Source: Methanobacteriota archaeon (GTDB taxonomy: Archaea > Thermoplasmatota > Poseidoniia > Poseidoniales > Thalassarchaeaceae). Taken from it: a stretch of DNA of 64,000 bases. This document shows positions 1,167-14,916 of the stretch, in pieces. Every line of letters starts with the position of its first letter. Within the stretch, counting starts at the first letter, position 1. The stretch is taken from NCBI GenBank assembly GCA_018650285.1, contig JABIGF010000021.1:62001-126000 (forward strand). The letters are read 5' to 3'. Made by a program: the position numbers and the translations under genes. Under the pieces are notes generated by a model that was not told the DNA's origin, did no database searches, and was given only the letters and a program-made list of their open reading frames with translations.

Positions 1167-4100
1167 TCAACGCATTGGTATTTCTGCGAGGTTCTCAATT
1201 TCACCAAGTGCTTTACCTAGTGCATCTTGAGCCTGAGCCTTGTGAGCTTCACCCATTTCGTGACGTGAGTAACGAGCCTCTTCAAAGACGCTATCAAGAG
1301 CCACTAATGCATCCTCATTGATTGGCAATGCCTTACGAATTGCCATTTCGAATTCACGAACTGTCTCAAAATCTCTCCTAAGGAATCGGTGTCTCATCAG
1401 AATTGCACAGAGGCTTTCGTAACAGTTGAAAATTGCCTCTCGTGTTTCATCGCCTGCGGCCAACAATTCTGCAGTATAAGCAAATACATCTGCTAATTCT
1501 GCAAGAGCCGATTGCTTACGGCGGCGCCAATAAACTGCAAATGCCACCACTCCTAGAAGAGCAGCACTCAAGCCACCATACACCCAACCGCTGACACCTT
1601 CTTGTGCCTGAGCTGCAGTCAGTACAGTAACTTCCATTGTAGTTTCAAGTCGAGCCCTATCATCTTCTGCAACCTGTTCATCGGTTGAATTGATTTGAAC
1701 ATAGAGTGTACCGTAAGTTTCCCCGTCTCCGTATGGCGCCATTGGCGTTACTGAAACAAACTCAAACCAGAATGAACCATTTGTACCAGTGCGCCCAGTA
1801 AGAGTGCGCGAAAGTTCACGTGATTCGTTGTATAGAACCGCTGTTACTGCAATATCAGATGCAGGCAATTGTGTATCCTTTGCTATCGCCTCAACCCATG
1901 CAATTACACGATCACCATTGTATGGAACTGTTTCCACACCAGTCTGGAAATCAACAGGAACTACAACAAATATGGAGGTGTTTATTTGTCCACCGTTGAA
2001 GTATCTTGATGTGTTATCCATCGCCCTTAGAGTCAAAGTAATTTCATCGGACACCATGAATTGTGGGGCAGTCAATTGAATGCTGAAACTACCATCTTCC
2101 ATCCAAACTACTCGGTCTGATACACCTAAATCGCTCTGATTCCAGTATAGAATCAAATCCATCATATCAACTGGGTTTCCACTTCCACCGACTTCGAGGA
2201 TTCTTCCTTCAATGATTATTGGGTGTGCGGATGATGAACGGATAATGATATTCTCATTAGTAACCAGTTGCCACTCAATATCAGACCATGTGGTTAGAGT
2301 TGTGGTTGCATTTGTGGAAAGCCATGATGGCTCTCCCGCATAGTGTGCCGACAAAGTGTGGTCGCCACGAGCAGAAACCATACTAACTGGAACTAATAAT
2401 TCGAATTCACCAATTGAGTTGGTTGTTACTGTGTCAACAAATACTCCATCAAGTAGAATATCTACACTACGGCTAGAAATACCTGGCAATCCGATTGCAT
2501 CAGAATCATAAAGGCGGCCACTGACATTCCAGAAAGTGCCACGAGTAGCGTCACCATTATCATCACTGACAAGTAATATTTCAGCGTGGTGAGCAACCCA
2601 AATGGTTCCGTTTGCACTAGCTTCACGATACCAACCCTGTGCAGGTGAGTATATCTGGACAGGATGTGAACCTAGGCCGATGTTGTCGGGGATTGTCCAA
2701 ACAGTTGACCAAACACCATCTTCATCAGAGTAGACGTTACCCAATAGTGTACCATTGAATCTAATTTCAAGAGTATGGTTGAACAACCAGCCGTCCGGCA
2801 AATTGTCTCTAATCGTACCCTGAACAGTTAGGTCGTCATTTATGGCTATCTCGGTCGGTAGAACAAGTGCAACATTGACTGCACTGTAGACATTCCAAGA
2901 AGTGTTTGCCTCAGAAGGCAAGTAGAAAGTAGATCCTGTAAATCTAACTTCCATCATCTGAGAGCCAAGTGGCGAATCTGCTGGCACTGGGAAATAAACT
3001 TGGAAATTTCCTTCACTGTCAGTTGTGATATTCGTTAGCCAATTATTGTCGAACCATACTTCAACTGTCAGATTTGATAGTGGATTATCAACGATATCAA
3101 AGAGTGTACCATTGATGATGAGAAGACCTTCTCTATCAACGTCACCACCGCCACCAAGCAAAGTGATGTATGTTGGAACACTAATGTTGACAAATTGCTC
3201 AGCAGATGAGTTGAGGTAGTATTCTGGGTTTGTTGAATCTCCTTGACCCATTGGGTCGACCCACATGAATCCTCCACGGAAGAATACAGTAACCAAATGA
3301 CTACCTGCAGCCGTATCGCCTGGCATAATATACATCAAACTGTAAGTGCCAGTAGTTGCGTTTGACTCAATGAATGCGCCTGTGTCGTTTCCATCTACTG
3401 CAAGATGTAGAATACTTGCTGCAGGAACACCACCGGTTTGAAGCAAGTTTCCATGCTCATCCACCAGCGTACCATTCACCCAAATGACTTCACCTGCGAT
3501 GAATTCTCCTTCCACAGCGTCAATAGTGACAACAGTTGGTGCGAGAATCACAATTAGTGTCGTGTCCTCATCACCAAGAACACCTGTTGTCCCAGACATT
3601 CCAGCATAGCTTGCATTGATTGAAAGTGGACCTGGCATTGTATCTGATGGGACAATCAAAAGTGCCCATGCAGAGCCATTTGAATCAGTAGTCACCATTG
3701 TTGAAATGTTAAGTGTTGGGAATTCAACTATAATTGAAGCATTCGGAATTACTGACAATGTGTTATCTTGCAGCATTACTTGAATTGAAACATTATCTCC
3801 ACGAGTTGTCCTATAATCCGGATGTAAATTCTCAGGAGTTAATATTGTTATTACTGAATAACCGCGACTATCAAATGAATTGTTTCCAGAAGATGAACCA
3901 TAGTAATTCACTGTCGGTGTATATGTTGCATCCAATACGTGTGTTCCTCGTGCAAAGTCTGCATCTAGTGTAATCACTGCAAGCCATGTTCCATTTGATT
4001 GTGCAATAGCATTTGAAACTTGGAAATTATTGGTAAAACCATCAATACTAATCTGTACCTGTGGCAATAATCCGGCGCCATCACGAGCGATAATTCCTGA

Positions 4101-7100
4101 ACCATTGTCCGACACAAGTGAACCTGTCACATTGAATGTGCCACCAGATAATGGATTTTCAGAGATACTATCCACTACTAGGACTGTAATTGAGCGCACG
4201 CTAATTGTGTTAATCATGTGACTTGTTGGGTGCATTTCCCAAATTCCTGTAGCGTTGTAGTAAAGAGTAACAGTAATCGGGCCAAGTGGCTGAGTATTTG
4301 GCACCTGATAAGTCCAAAGTGCTGTTCCATTACTATCTGTTGTGTTTTCAGGAAGCCAAGTATCGTGGAATTGCGCCACTACTTGAGTATTAGTAATTAG
4401 GCGATAATTGTCAGATGCTTCAACAAGAGTAGCGCCAAAACTAATGTTCTCTCCACGAGTAACTACGACAGGAATGAGTGGGTTTTGACCTTCGAAATCC
4501 GTCACCCCAATTACTAGCATACCTGAACTTGCAGTTCCAGTAAGATAGAATGGGCTACTACCATTCAACACTGAAACTACTAGCGTTTTATTGCCATTTG
4601 TTATGCCATCATTCAACGGATCGGTTGGTACAGAAAGATTGAATGTACCATTATTTGCAGTGGCATAACTTGAGATTAATGTCTCAGATGGGTCGCCCAA
4701 GAAGAAGACCTCGATTGAAACAGGACCAGTGAATGGGCGTGATGGGTCATTGCCATCGGCAATTTCACCAACTAATTGGAAACTTGTCCCAGCAGTCACA
4801 TTCAGTGGGACTGAAGATATCGTCACACCTGATGGAACCTGAACAGTGATGTTCATGAAAGTCTCATTACCCCACCAACGGTTAGAACCGTTTGCTAATG
4901 GGTCGGTTGTATCATTATCCATCCAGATACGCACATCATAGTATCCTGGATCCATAGTTGGAGGGACTGCATAATTGAAAATTGCATTCCCGTTTGCTCC
5001 AGATACTATTTGACCAATTGAAGTATTTAGTCCACCCCAATCCCAAGTGAAATTGACGGTTTCGCCTGCAACAGCTGAATTATCACCCACATCAGAGACT
5101 GAGATATTGAAAGGAATTGAATTTCCTGCTTCAACAATAACAACAGTAGTATTGCTTGTCAAAACCAATTCAGATTCTAAACCAATCAGTGCAGCAGGCC
5201 CATTTAACATCTGATAATATGCTCCACGAGAAGTTGCAAAAGTATCGAAATCAAGAATTGTTGTTAGATTGTATCCATCTGAGTTCAAGTTATTTGGCAA
5301 TGTCACGTTGATTGCGTAATTCCCAGTAGTATTACTGGTAATAATCGCACTTCCAATAGGGATGAAAATTGGTGGTGGCGGCTCTCCACCAGGTCCAGTA
5401 GGGCCAGTTCCGGGAAGAGATATTGAGAATCGCACATCTGTAGTATTCATCACAATAGGTGTCCCAAGTACATCATCAGTAAGAGTTCCTGTAATGGTAT
5501 TGGCACCGCCCAAATGAGTCCATTCTTGAGCGAGGTTAATTGACAAAGTCGCAGTGCCAGCCACAAGTAGCAAACCACTAGAATTTGCAGGCTTGTACCA
5601 TTCGCTTCCAGGATTCCCACTCAAATATCCGTCGTAAGAGATATTCCACCAATAGTCGCCAGCAGCGATTGTTGCTGATGGGGTAAATTCACTATCAATC
5701 CAATCGGAATCAGGGTCTGTTGAGACGTTCACAACACTTCCATCAAAAGTCATTGTAAATGTACCATTGAAAGTGACATCTGAATTACCAGTATGGTCCT
5801 GAAGACCAATCATTACCGAAGCGGTTTCACCTCTAACAATTGAATTCAATGAATAACTCATAGTAACTTCACTTCTCAATCCATAACCGATGAAATCGTC
5901 TTGATCGGTTGCACCGGGGATTGCTTGTCCGAATAATAATTGGACATCAAGGTAACCGGGACCTACTGGCATATCGCTACTATTCATCATCCAAGAAATA
6001 TTGAACGCACCATTGGTCACAGCCCAAGTTGTAATGTTTTCATAACTAGTATTGCTACCATTCCTGCGCAACATCAGTGAGATGAAACCGTCCATTGGAG
6101 CAGGTATCCCACCACGGGTAAATACTGTCCCATTAATGTAAATATTTTCATTAATTATTAGAAGTGAATCATTCGCACCCGACCCTGCAACTGTTGCAGT
6201 CATATCTGGTGCTGCTGAAACATTCATTACGAAAACCAGTGAACCTGGGCGCGCATGGTAAATCGGAGATGGCCCCAAGTGAAGATTTCCTTCATGCCAT
6301 CCATCAAAAGTAATTGTAGCATTCCTCAAACCAGGAGTTTCAAGGTCTGTCAAATTCACATCAAATGAGAAGAAACCATCCGCCCAAACAGGAGCCTGGA
6401 GCGTTACATTAGCACCAAGCACAGAAGATGGGTATTCTAATTGTACTGTGAAATTACCCTTTAGAGAAGGGTCTGTTTGTGGGTCTGCGTCCCACAGCAT
6501 GTTCCCAGTGATTGTCGTAGTTGTGCCTGCGCCAACAATTGGTTGCCCTATCGGTTCAGGGCCCGTCAAAGTGAAATTAACATCATCTGTGACATTTAAT
6601 TGGACAGAATAAACTTGATAGTAATATGGCACATAACCTCCTTGACGTGATTCAACGACAACCTTTGCATATCCGGGTGCGGGCATGTAAGCAGGCGTCC
6701 CATTAATTGAGAAATTGCCGTTAGCATCAGTTAGAATTCCTCGGATTCTTGAATCTTCATTCAATGCAGAAGGATTCATGGGATTGGTATCATTTTCTGA
6801 GACAAGATAGGCATTAACAAGTGCACTTTCTGCCCCTGTACTATTGTTGGAGAATTGTAAAGTTCCGTTGACAAAAACAAGGCCACTAGATAAATCTCGT
6901 TCAAATGAAAGAGGATTTACACTCTCATTAACAAATGTGACTTCTTCAGCTGGCGGACAAGGATTAATAGGAATCCAACCCATATCTAGGCCTGTACTGC
7001 TTTGTTCAAGATGTACTTCCGACCAAGTATTCCAATGGTAACCCATTACAGTATAACCTGTACCGTGCCAATCTCCGCCGCTATAACCAGTAACTTTGCG

Positions 7101-10100
7101 AGCCGGAATTCCAGCAACTCTTGCCATGGTTGTGAAAACAGTCACAAATTCTGAACACGAACCTTCACGTGCATCATCAAGGATAAAACGTGTGACGTCT
7201 TCAATCATGGGGACGCCTGAACCATCAAAATTGAGTTTGAAATCAGGGTCGCTTGTGTTCGTATCCTCCTCAGAAAGATATGCTCTTATCGCCTCAATTT
7301 TATCCCACGCACTTGTTGCTGACGCATCAGCAATAACCCCATGCGTGATATTTCGAACCGAAGATTCTATCAAAAGACCATCTAACATTTCTTGGGGGAA
7401 TTCTGTAGCGTATGGAGATGGGTATTCCACGCCAGATTGTAATTCAGTATCTGTATAGTATATTTCAGGAGCGTCAATCATTGTTATCATAACATCTGAT
7501 GCCGAAATGCGAATGTCTCTCGTATGATTAGTTTGATTAAATTCTGCAAGAGAATCTGCCCACATTAGATACTCCGTCGCATAAGCTGGTTGTGGTAAAA
7601 TACCACCTGGAGAAATTGGAACAAGGAATTCAAATTGCCAAGTCTCAGTAGTATTCCAAAATGTGTTATTAGCAACTTGATAGGTATTAATGTCTCCTTG
7701 AGATAATTGTTGCTCAGTCACCAATGAGGAATTTATTCCGTATGCACCACCGGTATAATAGTCGTACGTTTTTACTCTCCAACGATGAACTTTGTCAAGA
7801 TCTGGGCCGCTGCCAGTACTTGTGGTATTATTTGCATAGAATACAACCTGATTTGGATTAATATCATCAGTAGGGTCCCATGGGTTTTGAGGGCTCATTG
7901 CACAATCTTGCCAAAATTGCGGCGGGCATTCATCATAATCAGACATCCCACCACCATCAGTATCTGGATTACGCCAATCAGTACCTGTCTGATTCTCAAT
8001 AACATCAGGTATACCGTCTCCATCTGTGTCAGCAGGGTTCATGTCATCACTTGGGTCCCATTCAGGATTTGTTCCATCAAGGTATTCTTGTGAATCAATA
8101 ACTCCCCCATGGTCTGTATCAATATCTAGCCAATCTGTAACATAAGTATCAGTTGAACCATTTCCTCCACCCATACCTGGAACGAACATCAAGTCACAGC
8201 CAGTATTGTTCTCAAAGTAATTATTGAGAAGGTCACCGTCAGCATCCAAAGTATTGTCACAAGGTTCCATCGGATCTGTTCCATTCATTATTTCATCCAA
8301 ATCATTTTGACCATCGCCATCAGAATCATAGACAGTCGAAATTGAGAACCATCCCCAAATAGATAGGCTCTCTTCCCAATTTGAAAGGCCGTCTCCATCT
8401 GAATCCTCATAATCATCGTCACAGTGTTGATGCACTGAATTTAACGTACCAGAATTAGTGCCCTCAAAGTGACACCAACTACCATTCTTTGAAATTACTT
8501 CAACCGTATTCAGAGGTGGAGGAACAGTCACACCGGTCAGAATATTATTCTGAACGCCGGTATAGGTGAAACTTGTCAAAGCCCCTGATGAATCGTTGTA
8601 ATATGCCAATGCAGCATTGAAAGTTCTCCAATCATAAGGTGTCGTGTCAAAACCAGTAGCATTCATGAGGTACAGCCTTTGAAGACCGGCATTATACCCA
8701 CCTAGTTGAGTTACTATATCTAAAGTAGTAGAATAATCAACCATTGACATACAGGGGTCAGTTGAATGAGAAAGATTAGATTCATCACCATCACCAACGC
8801 CTCCAAAATCGGTATCATAAACATCCCACATTGTACATGAAAGGTTTTCTAGCCAATTGTCAATTCCATCATTGTCGTAATCACCAGCATCTTCGCGTCG
8901 GGTCGGGTCAGTCTCATTTGAATCAACTTGACCATTGCCATTTTTATCCTCTGCACCATCGTCAAATTGGTCGCCATCAGTATTGTTATTTCTTGGGTCG
9001 CTGTGTTGTGGAGGATTTCCATATGTTGAAACATTAGCCTCTATACCATCATCTATACCATCACCATCTGTATCTGCCGCAGTAGGGTCGGTTAGGATGA
9101 ATAATGCTTCCCAACCATCTTCCAAACCATCATTGTCAGAATCATTATCCCAAGGGTCAGTATCAGTGTCTTGGTCAACAGATGCGGTTTGAGATAGACA
9201 TCCGAAGAGTGGGTTACAAGGATTAACATTCTCTGTTGCTTGTTGAATTAATGGATTTCCTGAGACAAAATAAGGGGTCCCGCTACTGGTTGTGGTCCAT
9301 GAAGGATTGACATATTCCTGAACATTGACTAGGCCATCCCCATCAGGGTCACCCATCATACCGTCAATACCAGTAGGGTTTGTGGCGTTCAAACCATTGG
9401 CGACTTCCCAACCATCAGGTAAGCCGTCTCCATCGGTATCCCAGCCATCTGGGTCTTCATCTGACAGGCCATCGCCATCGTCATCGTTAGAACCGCAAAC
9501 TTGGTCTCCATCGTTGTCAGAATCAGCTTGATCCACATCCCCATCTCTGTCATTATCAATTCCATCATTACAAATATCACCAACTGGATCCTCATCACAA
9601 AGGATTACTGTGGAGCCATTACCATCATTTCCTGGCGCACCACAAGCAGGTTGGTTCACTTGCATTGCATCTTCTTCATTCCAATTCCTTACTGGAACCG
9701 TACCATTCCACCAAACACCGTTGTCAAGTACATTCGGTGTGCTTGATGAATCCCAGCCTAATGGAGTGAGGTATGAGTATTCCTGTAGATTTGACAATTG
9801 GTCACCGTCTGGATCTCCAGATGCACCATTGACGGTCAAGGATGAACCGTCATTTGGGTCCAATCCGTACTTCCATTCCCAACCATCAGGTAAACCATCA
9901 TTATCGGAATCCCAATCTTGGCATTGTGTTTGCAATAAAAATTCGGTACCGCAAGTCAAACCATCTCCATCTTGGTCAGTAGATGCAGCGGCTTCCCATG
10001 CTGAAAACTCCAAGGCTGCAAGTGATGTAAATATCATCAGCGCAGTTAGGAAAATTGCCCTCGTTCTAATCTTGCTTTGCAGTCGTGAAACTGCGCTGAA

Positions 10101-10184
10101 TTTTGATTGACCTTGCATAAGCATACTTGAACCCATAAACAAACCATCTCTTATGCTTCTTAATACAGTTGGAGCACAGTTCAT
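1167..10184 (-). CDS. giant 3005-aa surface protein: Ca-binding repeats, transglutaminase-like domain, Ig-like repeats, TM anchor, DUF4129
   Basis: A hydrophobic export segment lies near residues 43-66; residue 17 (ATG at 10136) is a plausible alternative start. Residues about 70-780 carry thrombospondin type 3/EF-loop-like repeats ('DSDNDGLPDGWE', 'DTDGDGIPD'), which bind calcium in known proteins. A transglutaminase-core domain follows, with Cys1010 ('EGSCSEF') and His1050 ('GYHWNTW'). The expected third acid in 'W.p.DP' is Asn1074 ('WIPINP'). Roughly residues 1090-2850 are tandem Ig-like units with 'G.l.D..G.p' and 'tD.nG.f' signatures and many N-x-S/T sequons. A transmembrane helix (about 2865-2886) precedes 'WRRRK' and a cytoplasmic DUF4129-type domain ending 'FEEARYSRHEMG'; DUF4129 and transglutaminase are often linked in other genomes. 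Likely a Ca-stabilised cell-surface protein that processes or crosslinks external protein. Confidence 0.9.
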   Translation of the reverse strand: MNCAPTVLRSIRDGLFMGSSMLMQGQSKFSAVSRLQSKIRTRAIFLTALMIFTSLAALEFSAWEAAASTDQDGDGLTCGTEFLLQTQCQDWDSDNDGLPDGWEWKYGLDPNDGSSLTVNGASGDPDGDQLSNLQEYSYLTPLGWDSSSTPNVLDNGVWWNGTVPVRNWNEEDAMQVNQPACGAPGNDGNGSTVILCDEDPVGDICNDGIDNDRDGDVDQADSDNDGDQVCGSNDDDGDGLSDEDPDGWDTDGDGLPDGWEVANGLNATNPTGIDGMMGDPDGDGLVNVQEYVNPSWTTTSSGTPYFVSGNPLIQQATENVNPCNPLFGCLSQTASVDQDTDTDPWDNDSDNDGLEDGWEALFILTDPTAADTDGDGIDDGIEANVSTYGNPPQHSDPRNNNTDGDQFDDGAEDKNGNGQVDSNETDPTRREDAGDYDNDGIDNWLENLSCTMWDVYDTDFGGVGDGDESNLSHSTDPCMSMVDYSTTLDIVTQLGGYNAGLQRLYLMNATGFDTTPYDWRTFNAALAYYNDSSGALTSFTYTGVQNNILTGVTVPPPLNTVEVISKNGSWCHFEGTNSGTLNSVHQHCDDDYEDSDGDGLSNWEESLSIWGWFSISTVYDSDGDGQNDLDEIMNGTDPMEPCDNTLDADGDLLNNYFENNTGCDLMFVPGMGGGNGSTDTYVTDWLDIDTDHGGVIDSQEYLDGTNPEWDPSDDMNPADTDGDGIPDVIENQTGTDWRNPDTDGGGMSDYDECPPQFWQDCAMSPQNPWDPTDDINPNQVVFYANNTTSTGSGPDLDKVHRWRVKTYDYYTGGAYGINSSLVTEQQLSQGDINTYQVANNTFWNTTETWQFEFLVPISPGGILPQPAYATEYLMWADSLAEFNQTNHTRDIRISASDVMITMIDAPEIYYTDTELQSGVEYPSPYATEFPQEMLDGLLIESSVRNITHGVIADASATSAWDKIEAIRAYLSEEDTNTSDPDFKLNFDGSGVPMIEDVTRFILDDAREGSCSEFVTVFTTMARVAGIPARKVTGYSGGDWHGTGYTVMGYHWNTWSEVHLEQSSTGLDMGWIPINPCPPAEEVTFVNESVNPLSFERDLSSGLVFVNGTLQFSNNSTGAESALVNAYLVSENDTNPMNPSALNEDSRIRGILTDANGNFSINGTPAYMPAPGYAKVVVESRQGGYVPYYYQVYSVQLNVTDDVNFTLTGPEPIGQPIVGAGTTTTITGNMLWDADPQTDPSLKGNFTVQLEYPSSVLGANVTLQAPVWADGFFSFDVNLTDLETPGLRNATITFDGWHEGNLHLGPSPIYHARPGSLVFVMNVSAAPDMTATVAGSGANDSLLIINENIYINGTVFTRGGIPAPMDGFISLMLRRNGSNTSYENITTWAVTNGAFNISWMMNSSDMPVGPGYLDVQLLFGQAIPGATDQDDFIGYGLRSEVTMSYSLNSIVRGETASVMIGLQDHTGNSDVTFNGTFTMTFDGSVVNVSTDPDSDWIDSEFTPSATIAAGDYWWNISYDGYLSGNPGSEWYKPANSSGLLLVAGTATLSINLAQEWTHLGGANTITGTLTDDVLGTPIVMNTTDVRFSISLPGTGPTGPGGEPPPPIFIPIGSAIITSNTTGNYAINVTLPNNLNSDGYNLTTILDFDTFATSRGAYYQMLNGPAALIGLESELVLTSNTTVVIVEAGNSIPFNISVSDVGDNSAVAGETVNFTWDWGGLNTSIGQIVSGANGNAIFNYAVPPTMDPGYYDVRIWMDNDTTDPLANGSNRWWGNETFMNITVQVPSGVTISSVPLNVTAGTSFQLVGEIADGNDPSRPFTGPVSIEVFFLGDPSETLISSYATANNGTFNLSVPTDPLNDGITNGNKTLVVSVLNGSSPFYLTGTASSGMLVIGVTDFEGQNPLIPVVVTRGENISFGATLVEASDNYRLITNTQVVAQFHDTWLPENTTDSNGTALWTYQVPNTQPLGPITVTLYYNATGIWEMHPTSHMINTISVRSITVLVVDSISENPLSGGTFNVTGSLVSDNGSGIIARDGAGLLPQVQISIDGFTNNFQVSNAIAQSNGTWLAVITLDADFARGTHVLDATYTPTVNYYGSSSGNNSFDSRGYSVITILTPENLHPDYRTTRGDNVSIQVMLQDNTLSVIPNASIIVEFPTLNISTMVTTDSNGSAWALLIVPSDTMPGPLSINASYAGMSGTTGVLGDEDTTLIVILAPTVVTIDAVEGEFIAGEVIWVNGTLVDEHGNLLQTGGVPAASILHLAVDGNDTGAFIESNATTGTYSLMYIMPGDTAAGSHLVTVFFRGGFMWVDPMGQGDSTNPEYYLNSSAEQFVNISVPTYITLLGGGGDVDREGLLIINGTLFDIVDNPLSNLTVEVWFDNNWLTNITTDSEGNFQVYFPVPADSPLGSQMMEVRFTGSTFYLPSEANTSWNVYSAVNVALVLPTEIAINDDLTVQGTIRDNLPDGWLFNHTLEIRFNGTLLGNVYSDEDGVWSTVWTIPDNIGLGSHPVQIYSPAQGWYREASANGTIWVAHHAEILLVSDDNGDATRGTFWNVSGRLYDSDAIGLPGISSRSVDILLDGVFVDTVTTNSIGEFELLVPVSMVSARGDHTLSAHYAGEPSWLSTNATTTLTTWSDIEWQLVTNENIIIRSSSAHPIIIEGRILEVGGSGNPVDMMDLILYWNQSDLGVSDRVVWMEDGSFSIQLTAPQFMVSDEITLTLRAMDNTSRYFNGGQINTSIFVVVPVDFQTGVETVPYNGDRVIAWVEAIAKDTQLPASDIAVTAVLYNESRELSRTLTGRTGTNGSFWFEFVSVTPMAPYGDGETYGTLYVQINSTDEQVAEDDRARLETTMEVTVLTAAQAQEGVSGWVYGGLSAALLGVVAFAVYWRRRKQSALAELADVFAYTAELLAAGDETREAIFNCYESLCAILMRHRFLRRDFETVREFEMAIRKALPINEDALVALDSVFEEARYSRHEMGEAHKAQAQDALGKALGEIENLAEIPMR

Positions 10185-10405: not shown

Positions 10406-11803
10406 TTAATTAGAAGAAAATAATGATTTAATCCAACTAATAAGTCCCCCACTTCGAACGGTCTTTTCGACCTTTGAACCGACCGGTTGTCGCAAAATTA
10501 AATCGCCATCACGACCTAAATCATTGTAGGGGAATTCGAACCTGAAATTCATGAATAGGATTAAATTATCCATGTTTTTAAAGACTGAACTAATTCGGTA
10601 GCCGAATTTTGTTTTGAATTGATTCCCCACATCAGCATAATTTGCAGGGAGTTCAATTTCGGCTAAAAATGGGATGCTTTTTTCAACTTTAGGTGGCAGT
10701 TGATAAATTGAAATTTTTAATTTATCTAAATTATTTTCACTAAGAGCCTGTTTGAAATCTGCCAACGACATTTTTTGCGCTGTTGTTCGCTTTTTTGTTT
10801 CATTTTTTGAATCGGATTTATTCCCCTTAGGTGTAGCAGAACTTGACTGATTACTACTTTGGGTGACAGGATTGTTTTGACTCTCCTTTTTTGACTCTGA
10901 CTGACTCGCAGCCCCACTACCCTTGCCCGAAGCGGAAACTACTGCCGAGCGGAGATGAACATCGACTGGTTGTCCTTTAACCAAATCGACCTTTAATTCG
11001 CCTCCCATCAACTCAACTAGTTGCTCATGGAATGGATTACTCGTTTTGATATTCATCGCCCCCATTAACTCCTTTCGATTAGCAAATTGACAACCAATAT
11101 TTTCACCTACGAGGGCAGTTATCTCAGAAGCAAGAAGGCCATAATTAACTGACCCATCGGATAACCTTGCCCTCACTGCATTACGGAAAGCTTTGCGTGA
11201 TTTCCTAACCGTTGGCAATTCTCCACTTTTCATTTGGGCTTCAGAGCCTTTTTTCTGTTTTGTCTGTGGTGTTTTTTTGGTTTTTTTCTCATCACCAGCA
11301 TTTGTCTCTTTTACCTTTTTATCGGGTTTTTTTGACGGTTTAGGCACTTCAAAAGAAGGGTTTGGCAAGAAGATATCGCCTGCAAACGTGTATGAAATAA
11401 CCTTTGCATCTCGCCATTTGTAGAATCCTTCCTCGCCACTATCTGGATACTTTGAAACATGGTCTTTCATCCTATCATTTGTCACAGCGAATGCTCCTTG
11501 CTGCCAAGCAAAGTGTAGCCAATAATCATCATCATGATCTTGAGAAGGAACTGAAACAACAGTGCCCTTAGCCTTTAACCCGCGTAAGAGGGCTGGATTG
11601 TCTACTCCCTTCTTTCCTGCATTATCGCTCAGATAATGGCGTGGCACAAAAGCATACACTTCGTATCCTAAATCAGCATAATAGGTAATTGCGGTAACAA
11701 TACCCGAGGCTGATGCTGGCCACTTATTCCCTGAATGACTCATGCCCACATTGGGCCCATCAATCACAATCAATACTCTAGACTCATCTGCGTTTTCTGC
11801 CAA
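10406..11803 (-). CDS. NYN/Zc3h12a (Regnase)-like ribonuclease with basic linkers and C-terminal domain
   Basis: Residues about 9-150 form a PIN/NYN nuclease core: 'VLIVIDGPNVG' supplies the first Asp and Asn, 'DHDDDYWLHFAWQQG' the acidic cluster, and 'AVTNDRMKDH' the last acids. This spacing matches the Zc3h12a-like RNase family, which cuts single-stranded RNA with Mg. A Lys/Thr-rich linker (about 155-205) leads to a predicted helical domain (about 205-290), a Ser/Asn/Lys linker and a distinct C-terminal domain (about 345-465). The start is TTG at 11803: the upstream codon is TAA, no ATG occurs before the nuclease motif, and a GGAGG SD lies 9 nt upstream. It sits between two surface-protein genes on the same strand. 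Substrate unknown. Confidence 0.8.
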   Translation of the reverse strand: MAENADESRVLIVIDGPNVGMSHSGNKWPASASGIVTAITYYADLGYEVYAFVPRHYLSDNAGKKGVDNPALLRGLKAKGTVVSVPSQDHDDDYWLHFAWQQGAFAVTNDRMKDHVSKYPDSGEEGFYKWRDAKVISYTFAGDIFLPNPSFEVPKPSKKPDKKVKETNAGDEKKTKKTPQTKQKKGSEAQMKSGELPTVRKSRKAFRNAVRARLSDGSVNYGLLASEITALVGENIGCQFANRKELMGAMNIKTSNPFHEQLVELMGGELKVDLVKGQPVDVHLRSAVVSASGKGSGAASQSESKKESQNNPVTQSSNQSSSATPKGNKSDSKNETKKRTTAQKMSLADFKQALSENNLDKLKISIYQLPPKVEKSIPFLAEIELPANYADVGNQFKTKFGYRISSVFKNMDNLILFMNFRFEFPYNDLGRDGDLILRQPVGSKVEKTVRSGGLISWIKSLFSSN

Positions 11804-11955: not shown

Positions 11956-14916
11956 TTAATCATCGATTAATTCAATTTCATCCAAATCTTCGTCAACTGC
12001 TTCTTCTTCTGAGTCGCCCATTAATTCTTCATCAGTAACAGCATCAGGTAGGTCAAATAGTTCATCTTCATCATCTAGATATTCCTCTTCTTCTTCCCAT
12101 TCATTTGTCCGACGCTTACGGCCAGCAATTGCTGCTACAATCAACAATACAAAACCTGCAAGCATCATCTTGGTTGTTGTTCTCATGTTGCTAAGTTCAT
12201 TTGTAATCCTAGTTGTAGGATTATTTATTTCTACTCTAATATCAACATCTGCTTCAGCATTGTATTCATCAGAATAACCTGTAGTGAATGATTGTGGTTT
12301 CCCTATGACTTTGATAGTATGAAAGTCACCATGCCGTGCATCACTTGATGATGACACGTGTAAATTGAATGTAATTTCCGAAAAGGCTGGCACTAATACC
12401 AATGATGATTGAGTATCTGGATTCTGAGCCGTTGCAGCCCAACCACTTGGCGCCTCAGCAGTAAGAACGACTTGCATATCCGTATTACCCTCATTCTTGA
12501 GTCGCATTGTGTAATCAGTAGTATCACCTGGGAGCATTGGTTGGTTTGCTGAAACTTGAACTATCTTCAGCGCAGGAACTCCCTCTCCTACTCCTATACT
12601 AATAGGGAGGTCAAAGAAACGCGGCGTTCCTGAACCAGTTGATTCTTCAATACGTAGGTAAATGGTGTGATTTGCAGCTAATACTTGGTTTGTCAAATGA
12701 ATCTCTAACCAGAATTCTTCAGAGTCCCCTGCTGTCATTTGCATTACCGGCATTGGGTCATTATCAAGATTAGTAATCATATAATCCCAAAGAGTGTAAC
12801 GCCCTTCTTCAGCGTCAGCATTACGATCGTAATCAGCCGGATTGACTATTCTCCAATCAATTAATGTATTTTCGTCACCTGATGTTTGAGTAGCTTCTAT
12901 CCTCATTCTAACATCTATGTACTCATCACTATCATCATTCAAACAGTTCTCATACTCAATGTGACCTAGCCCATTTGAGGCTCCATCACAATCGAAGACT
13001 ACTACCGCTTGCATTCCATTTGTTCTATGCGGGGTGAATTGAATAATAGCTGAAAGCGAGGTATTACCAGCACTGGAAAATTCCACCTCCAACAAACCAA
13101 AATCTGGGTCATCAGGCTGACCTGAAGGATTGACGTAAAGAATCAATACATAATTTGAGTGGCGAGGTAATGTAGGAGTATGCCACAGCCCATCATTAGG
13201 GTCTTGAGTAATCATCTGTCCGGTTTGATTATCAACAAAGTAGAACACAGTCCCACGTGGCTTCTGAGTAACATCAAATCTGAATTCATCAGAATCAAAA
13301 CCCGTGTTGAATAGTTCAATGTAAAAAGGAGTGGGGGGCCCTAAATCATCAACAAACTGAGGCACCGTTACATCAAAAGATTCCGGCCTAGAAGAATTGT
13401 AGATTTGGTTTTCATGCTCAGTATCCCAAAGAGAAATCATTGGCGGAGCAAAAACATCTAGTTTCTCAAGTGTGATTTGAATCATGGTATAATGAACTTC
13501 GGCGCCGCTGGTGTTGTACGCTCTAACAGAAATATCTAGACGAGGAGGAGCATTACCCAATTCAGTAGGTGCTTCCAAAGTCAACTGGGCTGTCACTTCA
13601 TTCCCACCATCAGAAAGTGAATATCCCTCAGGGCGGTCAAATTGTGCCAACCAACTTGAATCAAGGCTTGTTTGAACTGCTAACTCAACATCCAAAGATG
13701 AACCTGAAGAACCTGTGTGCCTCAGTACTAATTGAATTGGAGTAGTCTGGTCTGGGGCGATATACTCTGTATTTCGGTCAGCAGCATTTCTCACATGAAC
13801 GCCATACTGCTCAACCACTACTTCTTCATGCTCAAAAACGAATGGATTCGGACCTTGTATGTCTAATACTGAAAGTGTCAAAGAATAAACTCCAGATTGA
13901 ATACCCGATGGATATGTCCATGTATAACTACCAACAAGTCCGCCATTGTCATTGGTTAACTCGGCGTTGTTGAAAGTGTGGTCAACGGGGTAACTTCCAT
14001 CAGGTGCTCGTAACTGTACACTAACTTGAGTGACATCTTCTCGACCTAGGGCATTCAATACATCAATCTTGAATTCCATTGCACGCTCATCAGGGAGGGC
14101 ATTTGGGAACCATTCCAATGTTTCAGGGTCGGTCCAAAGAGCACCTTCTGTGAAAATTCTAACTTCACTTCCTGCAGCAGCATTAGACCAAAATTCCATC
14201 ATTGAATAATCATCAGAAGAGTCAGGGTCACCCCACATTACTTCTGCATCACAAGATGGGCCACCAAATGGATTACCACCACCTTGGCCTTCACAAGAAG
14301 ATTCTGCTGAAATTTCTAGAGTCAAAGCCCCTCCACTCGGAATCGTCTTGTATTGATCACCGGGCCATTGTAATCTAACGATTTCTTGATGCCATCCACA
14401 ACCAAATAAATCGTCACAAGCACTCTGCTCCTTCTGAGTGGTGGCAACTGTTTCAGAACCTCCTGAAGATGATTCGATTCTCAAAGTAAAGGTGTAAGTT
14501 GCAGTCTGCTGTTGTGAACCTGCTGTAGCCTTGAGGAATATGTTGACTGGAATCTCCCAACCACTGCTACCACCAGAAGCAGCCCTGCCACCTATTGGCA
14601 TATCTGCTAATACCGTCCTTGTTCGGAATTCTAGTGTATCTGTCAAAGCTGAGGCGTTGCTTTGGCCGTTGTTGGGTGTTTTTGTTGTGAGGTATCCATC
14701 GCCTCCTGCGGTTGAATTTCTTTTATCGATGAAAATATTGTATAGTTTCATCGGAATCTCTTCGCCAGAAAAACGCTGTTCTTGAACTGCTACGAGCGAT
14801 TCTTGAGTAGTAGTAGCATATGGGGCGAGTAATGTTGACAACATCACACAGACGAGAAACAAGGATGCAGTTGAGACGCCTCTTGCTGATTGCGAGAGAG
14901 ATGCTGATAGTTCCAC
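11956..14916 (-). CDS. 986-aa exported, membrane-anchored surface protein with acidic cytoplasmic tail
   Basis: The start is GTG at 14916. A signal/anchor segment (about residues 14-34) is followed by a long beta-rich ectodomain with Ig-like and CARDB/NEW3-like stretches; the clearest is near the C-terminus ('LPGDTTDYTMRLKNEGNTDM', about 840-900), which resembles NEW3-type domains of S-layer-associated and protease-linked archaeal proteins. One transmembrane helix (about 913-931, 'MMLAGFVLLIVAAIAG') precedes 'RKRR' and a 50-residue tail that is mostly Asp and Glu. The topology is therefore outside to inside with a cytoplasmic acidic tail. No catalytic motif is seen. The function is unassigned; a structural or adhesion role on the cell envelope is inferred. 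Confidence 0.8.
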   Translation of the reverse strand: MELSASLSQSARGVSTASLFLVCVMLSTLLAPYATTTQESLVAVQEQRFSGEEIPMKLYNIFIDKRNSTAGGDGYLTTKTPNNGQSNASALTDTLEFRTRTVLADMPIGGRAASGGSSGWEIPVNIFLKATAGSQQQTATYTFTLRIESSSGGSETVATTQKEQSACDDLFGCGWHQEIVRLQWPGDQYKTIPSGGALTLEISAESSCEGQGGGNPFGGPSCDAEVMWGDPDSSDDYSMMEFWSNAAAGSEVRIFTEGALWTDPETLEWFPNALPDERAMEFKIDVLNALGREDVTQVSVQLRAPDGSYPVDHTFNNAELTNDNGGLVGSYTWTYPSGIQSGVYSLTLSVLDIQGPNPFVFEHEEVVVEQYGVHVRNAADRNTEYIAPDQTTPIQLVLRHTGSSGSSLDVELAVQTSLDSSWLAQFDRPEGYSLSDGGNEVTAQLTLEAPTELGNAPPRLDISVRAYNTSGAEVHYTMIQITLEKLDVFAPPMISLWDTEHENQIYNSSRPESFDVTVPQFVDDLGPPTPFYIELFNTGFDSDEFRFDVTQKPRGTVFYFVDNQTGQMITQDPNDGLWHTPTLPRHSNYVLILYVNPSGQPDDPDFGLLEVEFSSAGNTSLSAIIQFTPHRTNGMQAVVVFDCDGASNGLGHIEYENCLNDDSDEYIDVRMRIEATQTSGDENTLIDWRIVNPADYDRNADAEEGRYTLWDYMITNLDNDPMPVMQMTAGDSEEFWLEIHLTNQVLAANHTIYLRIEESTGSGTPRFFDLPISIGVGEGVPALKIVQVSANQPMLPGDTTDYTMRLKNEGNTDMQVVLTAEAPSGWAATAQNPDTQSSLVLVPAFSEITFNLHVSSSSDARHGDFHTIKVIGKPQSFTTGYSDEYNAEADVDIRVEINNPTTRITNELSNMRTTTKMMLAGFVLLIVAAIAGRKRRTNEWEEEEEYLDDEDELFDLPDAVTDEELMGDSEEEAVDEDLDEIELIDD

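Follow-up and report, generated by a model that had tools for sequence, protein, structure and literature searches.

The window, as the whole stretch of 64,000 nucleotides analysed here is called, comes from Marine Group II archaea (Poseidoniales), from a genome of 2.1 Mb in 28 contigs. It encodes on its minus strand a protein of 3005 aa, hereafter the giant, which the preliminary description had presented as a surface protein joining a transglutaminase (TGase)-like domain and a DUF4129 domain in one chain (Table 1). The reading frame is confirmed, with the correction that its strand is minus, and 40 uninterrupted full-length orthologues of about 2950-3030 aa, encoded in other genomes, rule out an assembly or frame artefact as well as a chance ORF. 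The nearest relatives begin at Met21 (...SSMLMQGQSKFSA), the probable true start, which is followed by a signal peptide read from the sequence as a basic stretch, a hydrophobic core, and an AAA-S junction.

Table 1. Features of the giant gene and of its upstream neighbours, in positions of the window.
Feature	Position	Strand	Remarks
Giant TgpA-like stalk protein, 3005-aa ORF	1167..10184	minus (10184→1167)	Stop codon included
Signal peptide and likely true start Met21	9981..10124	minus	To about residue 68; predicted
Head of TSP3 type, rich in Asp, residues 70-777; Ca binding putative	7854..9977	minus	Four TSP3_bac stretches, slightly under the cut-off
TgpA-like ectodomain with transglutaminase core, residues 778-1095	6900..7853	minus	Pfam, model, and PDB match
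Cys1010, triad Cys, invariant	7155..7157	minus	114/114
Asn1052, triad His slot	7029..7031	minus	His 0/114; His in outgroups
Asn1074, triad Asp slot	6963..6965	minus	D/E/N/Q in relatives
Cys1076, second invariant Cys	6957..6959	minus	114/114; outgroups have Thr, Ser or another residue
15 Ig-like units, residues 1103-2745	1950..6878	minus	Iterated HMM
Sixteenth Ig-like beta-sandwich, membrane-proximal, about residues 2746-2855	1620..1949	minus	Model, Foldseek
Membrane helix, about residues 2866-2887, then RRRK	1524..1589	minus	Model helix; hydrophobicity and positive-inside rule from sequence
DUF4129, residues 2921-2989, predicted cytoplasmic	1218..1424	minus	Pfam
Gene with NYN/Zc3h12a-type ribonuclease domain	10406..11803	minus	Between the 986-aa gene and the giant
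986-aa surface protein, C-terminal membrane helix and acidic tail, NPCBM_assoc	11956..14916	minus	Directly upstream of the giant in relatives

Profile searches, on which the preliminary description had let its domain calls depend, place both named domains above their Pfam cut-offs: Transglut_core matches residues 958-1075 (E=1.6e-11, 44.9 bits against a cut-off of 23) and DUF4129 the C-terminal end (E=1.4e-6, 28.7 bits against 24.8). A TSP3-type head corresponds to the calcium-binding repeats; TSP3_bac, like Big_3_5 and CarboxypepD_reg, scores slightly under its cut-off when this single sequence is searched, and calcium binding itself is putative. NCBIfam gave only partial matches of the giant to TSP3-rich proteins, far under the cut-off. 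The array of Ig-like repeats is borne out by the iterated HMM and is extended by the structural model of residues 2735-3005, which consists of a beta-sandwich, one long helix (2866-2910) that includes the membrane span and runs past it, and a bundle of helices at DUF4129. Foldseek matches this last sandwich to Ig/FN3/macroglobulin-type folds, in a search of the C-terminal model whose matches are dominated by the Ig domain, and the HMM calls the unit in only some relatives. Solved relatives of DUF4129, when sought by sequence, yielded chance-level matches only. With a single membrane helix and the charge rule, the outside-membrane-inside topology of the earlier reading is also what is predicted here; the charge rule and knowledge of the family would put DUF4129 in the cytoplasm.

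The part of the chain between the Asp-rich head and the Ig-like units resembles TgpA, a membrane-bound TGase of Pseudomonas aeruginosa. The segment-wise structure prediction suggested earlier gave for residues 775-1095 a model with a mean pLDDT of 90 and a pTM of 0.89, for which the top-ranking PDB structure is TgpA's periplasmic domain (6g49, E=3.1e-12, probability 1.00). The same entry also comes first by sequence when the family profile is used (E=1.9e-9). The N-terminal multi-helix region TgpA_N (PF11992) gave no match to the window protein with the threshold relaxed to E<=5; a homologue from Marine Group III matches the far end of TgpA_N (E=7.7e-7), slightly under the cut-off. The features of the TgpA type that are found in the giant include a TgpA-like extracytoplasmic domain with Transglut_core and a C-terminal DUF4129 after the membrane helix. 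By profile and by structural model, the giant is a TGase-DUF4129 protein of the TgpA type with an Ig stalk inserted.

A search for the same architecture, likewise proposed in the preliminary description, found orthologues throughout Poseidoniales and related giants in Marine Group III. The TGase region is matched in 54/59 relatives and in 24/25 of the best assemblies, nearly always once per genome; judged from these genome sequences, the giant is order-wide and essentially single-copy in Poseidoniales. A contig titled "uncultured Rhodobiaceae bacterium" (L084, CALDQY010000118.1) encodes the archaeal giant too; misbinning in a public MAG is the probable cause. Besides the window protein, 40 other full-length orthologues were read, and the resulting 41 proteins share a mean pairwise identity of 47% (minimum 35%). 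Identity is highest in DUF4129 (67%) and the head (65%), followed by the TGase part (42%), the stalk (41%), and the membrane linker (24%). Their length is practically frozen: the mature chain measures 2893±8.8 aa to the end of the FEEARYS motif, with 690±5.5 aa in the head, 299±3.1 in the TgpA-like part, and 1836±7.6 in the stalk and membrane segment. The coefficient of variation of length is 0.5% for the giant against 2.9-13.7% for flanking orthologue groups, a crude comparison to which start codons and split genes add noise. By the iterated family HMM, all 35 non-redundant proteins have either 15 or 16 Ig-like units, and this fixed number suggests that the reach of the protein is itself under selection.

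Typical repeat-variable adhesins differ in unit number between relatives, and with 15-16 units in 35/35 non-redundant proteins a repeat-variable adhesin can be discarded. An adhesin for particles or phytoplankton in the wider sense would fit a TSP3-type head followed by Ig repeats, and the TSP3 ("thrombospondin") genes of Poseidoniales have indeed been read as adhesion genes (PMC6461757). That role appears highly improbable for the giant, whose length and number of units stay fixed between genera that differ in niche, and it would leave the conserved DUF4129 tail and the gene module described below unexplained.

The catalytic triad of the TGase domain is incomplete, as seen in an alignment of 114 distinct Poseidoniales domain sequences. 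When the giant is aligned to 6g49, the triad His position of TgpA falls on a residue other than His, and among the 114 homologues this slot (1052) is occupied by T, R, S, A, G, N, or D, and never by His. The Asp slot (1074) carries D in 61 sequences, E in 42, N in 8, Q in 2, and Y in 1. A substitute His was looked for among the same homologues, where no other His column is invariant. The triad Cys is always present, and so is Cys1076, whose conservation is partly selected because some loci were fetched with a pattern containing it; in the set found without such a pattern it is kept in 41/41. Marine Group III and most other giants retain the triad Cys and His, with Thr, Ser, or another residue at the position of Cys1076. 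Two giants of other Thermoplasmatota (L236, L238) show a different decay of the TGase, with the catalytic Cys replaced by Ser and the His kept, and the second TGase of a further one (L237) has Gly in place of the catalytic Cys, again with the His kept. The other TGase of the window's genome, a protein of 524 aa, has a C, an AHAW motif, and an Asp at the triad.

The full triad of an active transglutaminase is thus not found in the giant, which has the Cys, lacks the His together with all its homologues, and has a variable Asp slot. It has instead the traits of a pseudo-enzyme: the TGase fold is kept, according to the prediction, and the loss of the catalytic His is conserved across the clade. 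In the aligned sequences the His is lost order-wide in Poseidoniales, and the Cys is lost elsewhere in the same phylum; the giant's TGase domain looks catalytically degenerate, and catalysis is presumably absent. The isopeptide bonds raised in the preliminary description are not supported by this comparison, with the triad His absent from 114/114 and kept in outgroups, and cross-linking by the giant is unlikely. An active surface transglutaminase, amidase, or cysteine protease could still be imagined to cross-link or trim surface proteins through an unusual site at Cys1010, with Asp/Asn1050, the Asp1074 slot, or Cys1076 replacing the His. The invariance of Cys1010, the predicted preservation of the fold, and a Transglut_core score above the cut-off would agree with such an enzyme. 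An active cross-linker is nonetheless not the leading view, given that every homologue lacks the His and that none of the other His columns is invariant; with an Asp slot that accepts D, E, N, or Q and outgroups that keep the His, such an enzyme is considered unlikely.

In the genetic neighborhood of the giant, the relatives have the gene of the 986-aa surface protein directly upstream, on the same strand and at a distance of -3 to 119 nt in 38/41 loci. The insertion of the gene with the NYN domain is confined to the window's genus (L015 and L034 have it as well), and elsewhere the 986-aa gene and the giant almost touch. Marine Group III also has a homologue of this surface protein in the vicinity of the giant or the DUF58 locus. 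This operon-like linkage to another surface protein is among the arguments for a surface-layer or envelope-building protein, in which the giant would be a lattice stalk or anchor and the link of DUF4129 to MoxR would be ancestral baggage or serve assembly only. An order-wide, essentially single-copy protein of fixed length would also suit that role, and Ig arrays form S-layers elsewhere, according to one report (PMC10120038). Against it, no lattice role is described for TgpA (PMC3507681), and DUF4129 is among the most conserved parts of the chain, which does not look like baggage; a role of this kind is rated as improbable.

DUF4129 searches revealed two giant proteins with this domain in most Poseidoniia genomes. 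The Marine Group II pair consists of the window type and a second giant of about 2580-2690 aa (L169-L172), in which the family-profile search found no match to a TGase. The second giant of the window's genome (L169 1140-8888, G000:C26) has 2582 aa and an N-terminal half very rich in Asp; its relatives are present across the order, and in the gene tree their DUF4129 groups with TGase-less Thermoplasmatota proteins. Marine Group III giants also come in two types, of about 2000 and about 2700 aa. Genes for DUF4350, MoxR, and DUF58 come after the giant, on its own strand, in Marine Group III and in many other Thermoplasmatota; for several members the DUF4350 score lies under the cut-off. No such neighbors occur within the stretch read at three outgroup loci that have a TGase giant (L228, L236, L237). 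In Marine Group II, the module genes are unlinked to the giant and occur as a DUF4350-DUF58 cluster, a DUF4350-MoxR-DUF58 cluster, and a lone MoxR. At four loci (L197, L199, L201, L203), the DUF4350-DUF58 cluster has no MoxR of its own and adjoins a gene for a CDC48-type AAA ATPase. A small form of the module, made of a 273-aa DUF4129 protein, a 193-aa ORF, MoxR, and DUF58, exists without a giant ectodomain (L240, G278:C1, 2897-6369).

Copy numbers follow the same pattern, with exactly two DUF58 in each of the 24 Poseidoniia genomes checked and two strong MoxR in 7/7, although the agreement between giants, MoxR, and DUF58 is a correlation among related genomes. Outside Poseidoniia, DUF58 is present in 13/13 DUF4129-positive genomes vs 9/22 without detected DUF4129 (Fisher p=0.0006, kinship uncorrected). 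A control search also detected DUF58 in Haloferax volcanii, a genetically tractable archaeon. Several deep forks in the gene trees are weak or open, and the trees do not tie the window giant to one particular DUF58/MoxR cluster. The conservation of the DUF4129 tail and the MoxR-DUF58 operons of the homologues speak for the earlier proposal of a surface role linked to the cytoplasm, and a relay inward by the giant, which may sense or shape the cell surface, is plausible.

The explanation that best accounts for these observations, and to which somewhat better than even confidence is given, is that the giant is an enlarged, non-catalytic envelope stalk or receptor of the TgpA type, coupled to a MoxR-DUF58-DUF4350-DUF4129 module; it is probably a structural or sensing stalk rather than a cross-linking enzyme. 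The Asp-rich head and the pseudo-TGase would together bind without catalysis, at the tip of a stalk of fixed length (16 units of about 4 nm) that keeps them roughly 60 nm away from the membrane, and would probably contact a surface polymer or the co-encoded 986-aa protein. DUF4129 would serve on the cytoplasmic side as the docking site of the MoxR/DUF58 ATPase, which would assemble, remodel, or read out the stalk there. The fact that the giant is unlinked to MoxR or DUF58 in Marine Group II counts against this explanation, and the retained Cys1010 leaves room for some Cys chemistry. A bolder version, a possibility but a doubtful one, sees in the giant a fixed-height structural ruler of the Poseidoniales envelope, whose pseudo-enzyme head is coupled via DUF4129 to an ATP-driven MoxR-DUF58 machine.

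Among the planktonic archaea of surface sea water, Poseidoniales are described as the most abundant, and they have no cultured representatives (PMC6461757). An order-wide, length-frozen surface protein could define their envelope, and candidate cytoplasmic partners can now be named. The automatic label "transglutaminase" would be misleading for the giant, which adds to the cases of TGase-fold domains that lose one or another catalytic residue (the His in the giant, the Cys in other members of the phylum) with domain and module retained. This retention points to binding, rather than cross-linking, as the way in which part of the TgpA/MoxR/DUF58 systems, themselves poorly understood, operates. 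The literature searches found no paper connecting transglutaminase with Marine Group II, or with DUF4129 and archaea together, and none on the giant or on Poseidoniales envelope architecture; the sole match for Marine Group II and MoxR was unrelated. If the ruler reading is true, the giant would be an archaeal envelope organiser of a kind not found described in that literature, and a transglutaminase would have been recruited as a binding domain after the loss of catalysis.

Among known systems, TgpA from P. aeruginosa (PA2873; 6g49/6g4h) shares with the giant its extracytoplasmic TGase domain, by fold and by profile, and both are membrane proteins. TgpA has 668-688 aa, five to six membrane helices, and a periplasmic TGase domain with an intact triad and TGase activity, and plays a role in viability (PMC3507681), whereas the giant lacks the triad His, carries a signal peptide and the inserted Ig stalk, and crosses the membrane with a single helix. 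The second Marine Group II giant co-occurs with the window protein and has in common with it a signal-like start, the Asp-rich head, the membrane helix, and DUF4129, but no TGase was detected in it. The Marine Group III giants (L173 with about 2660 aa, L174-L178 with about 2000 aa) share TSP3, TGase, Ig units, membrane helix, and DUF4129, and the TGase of L173 is the closest outgroup match to that of the giant; they differ in that triad Cys and His are kept and the gene still lies in the DUF4350-MoxR-DUF58 operon. A further parallel is the PFNA operon of Bifidobacterium, with the gene order pkb2-fn3-MoxR-DUF58-tgm (PMC6803598, PMC8430577), which likewise brings a TGase together with MoxR, DUF58, and a large surface protein of repeat domains in a single genetic unit. 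That operon includes a kinase and encodes the FN3 protein separately from the TGase, whereas in the system of the window repeat stalk, TGase, and DUF4129 form one chain, and the operon of its relatives includes DUF4350.
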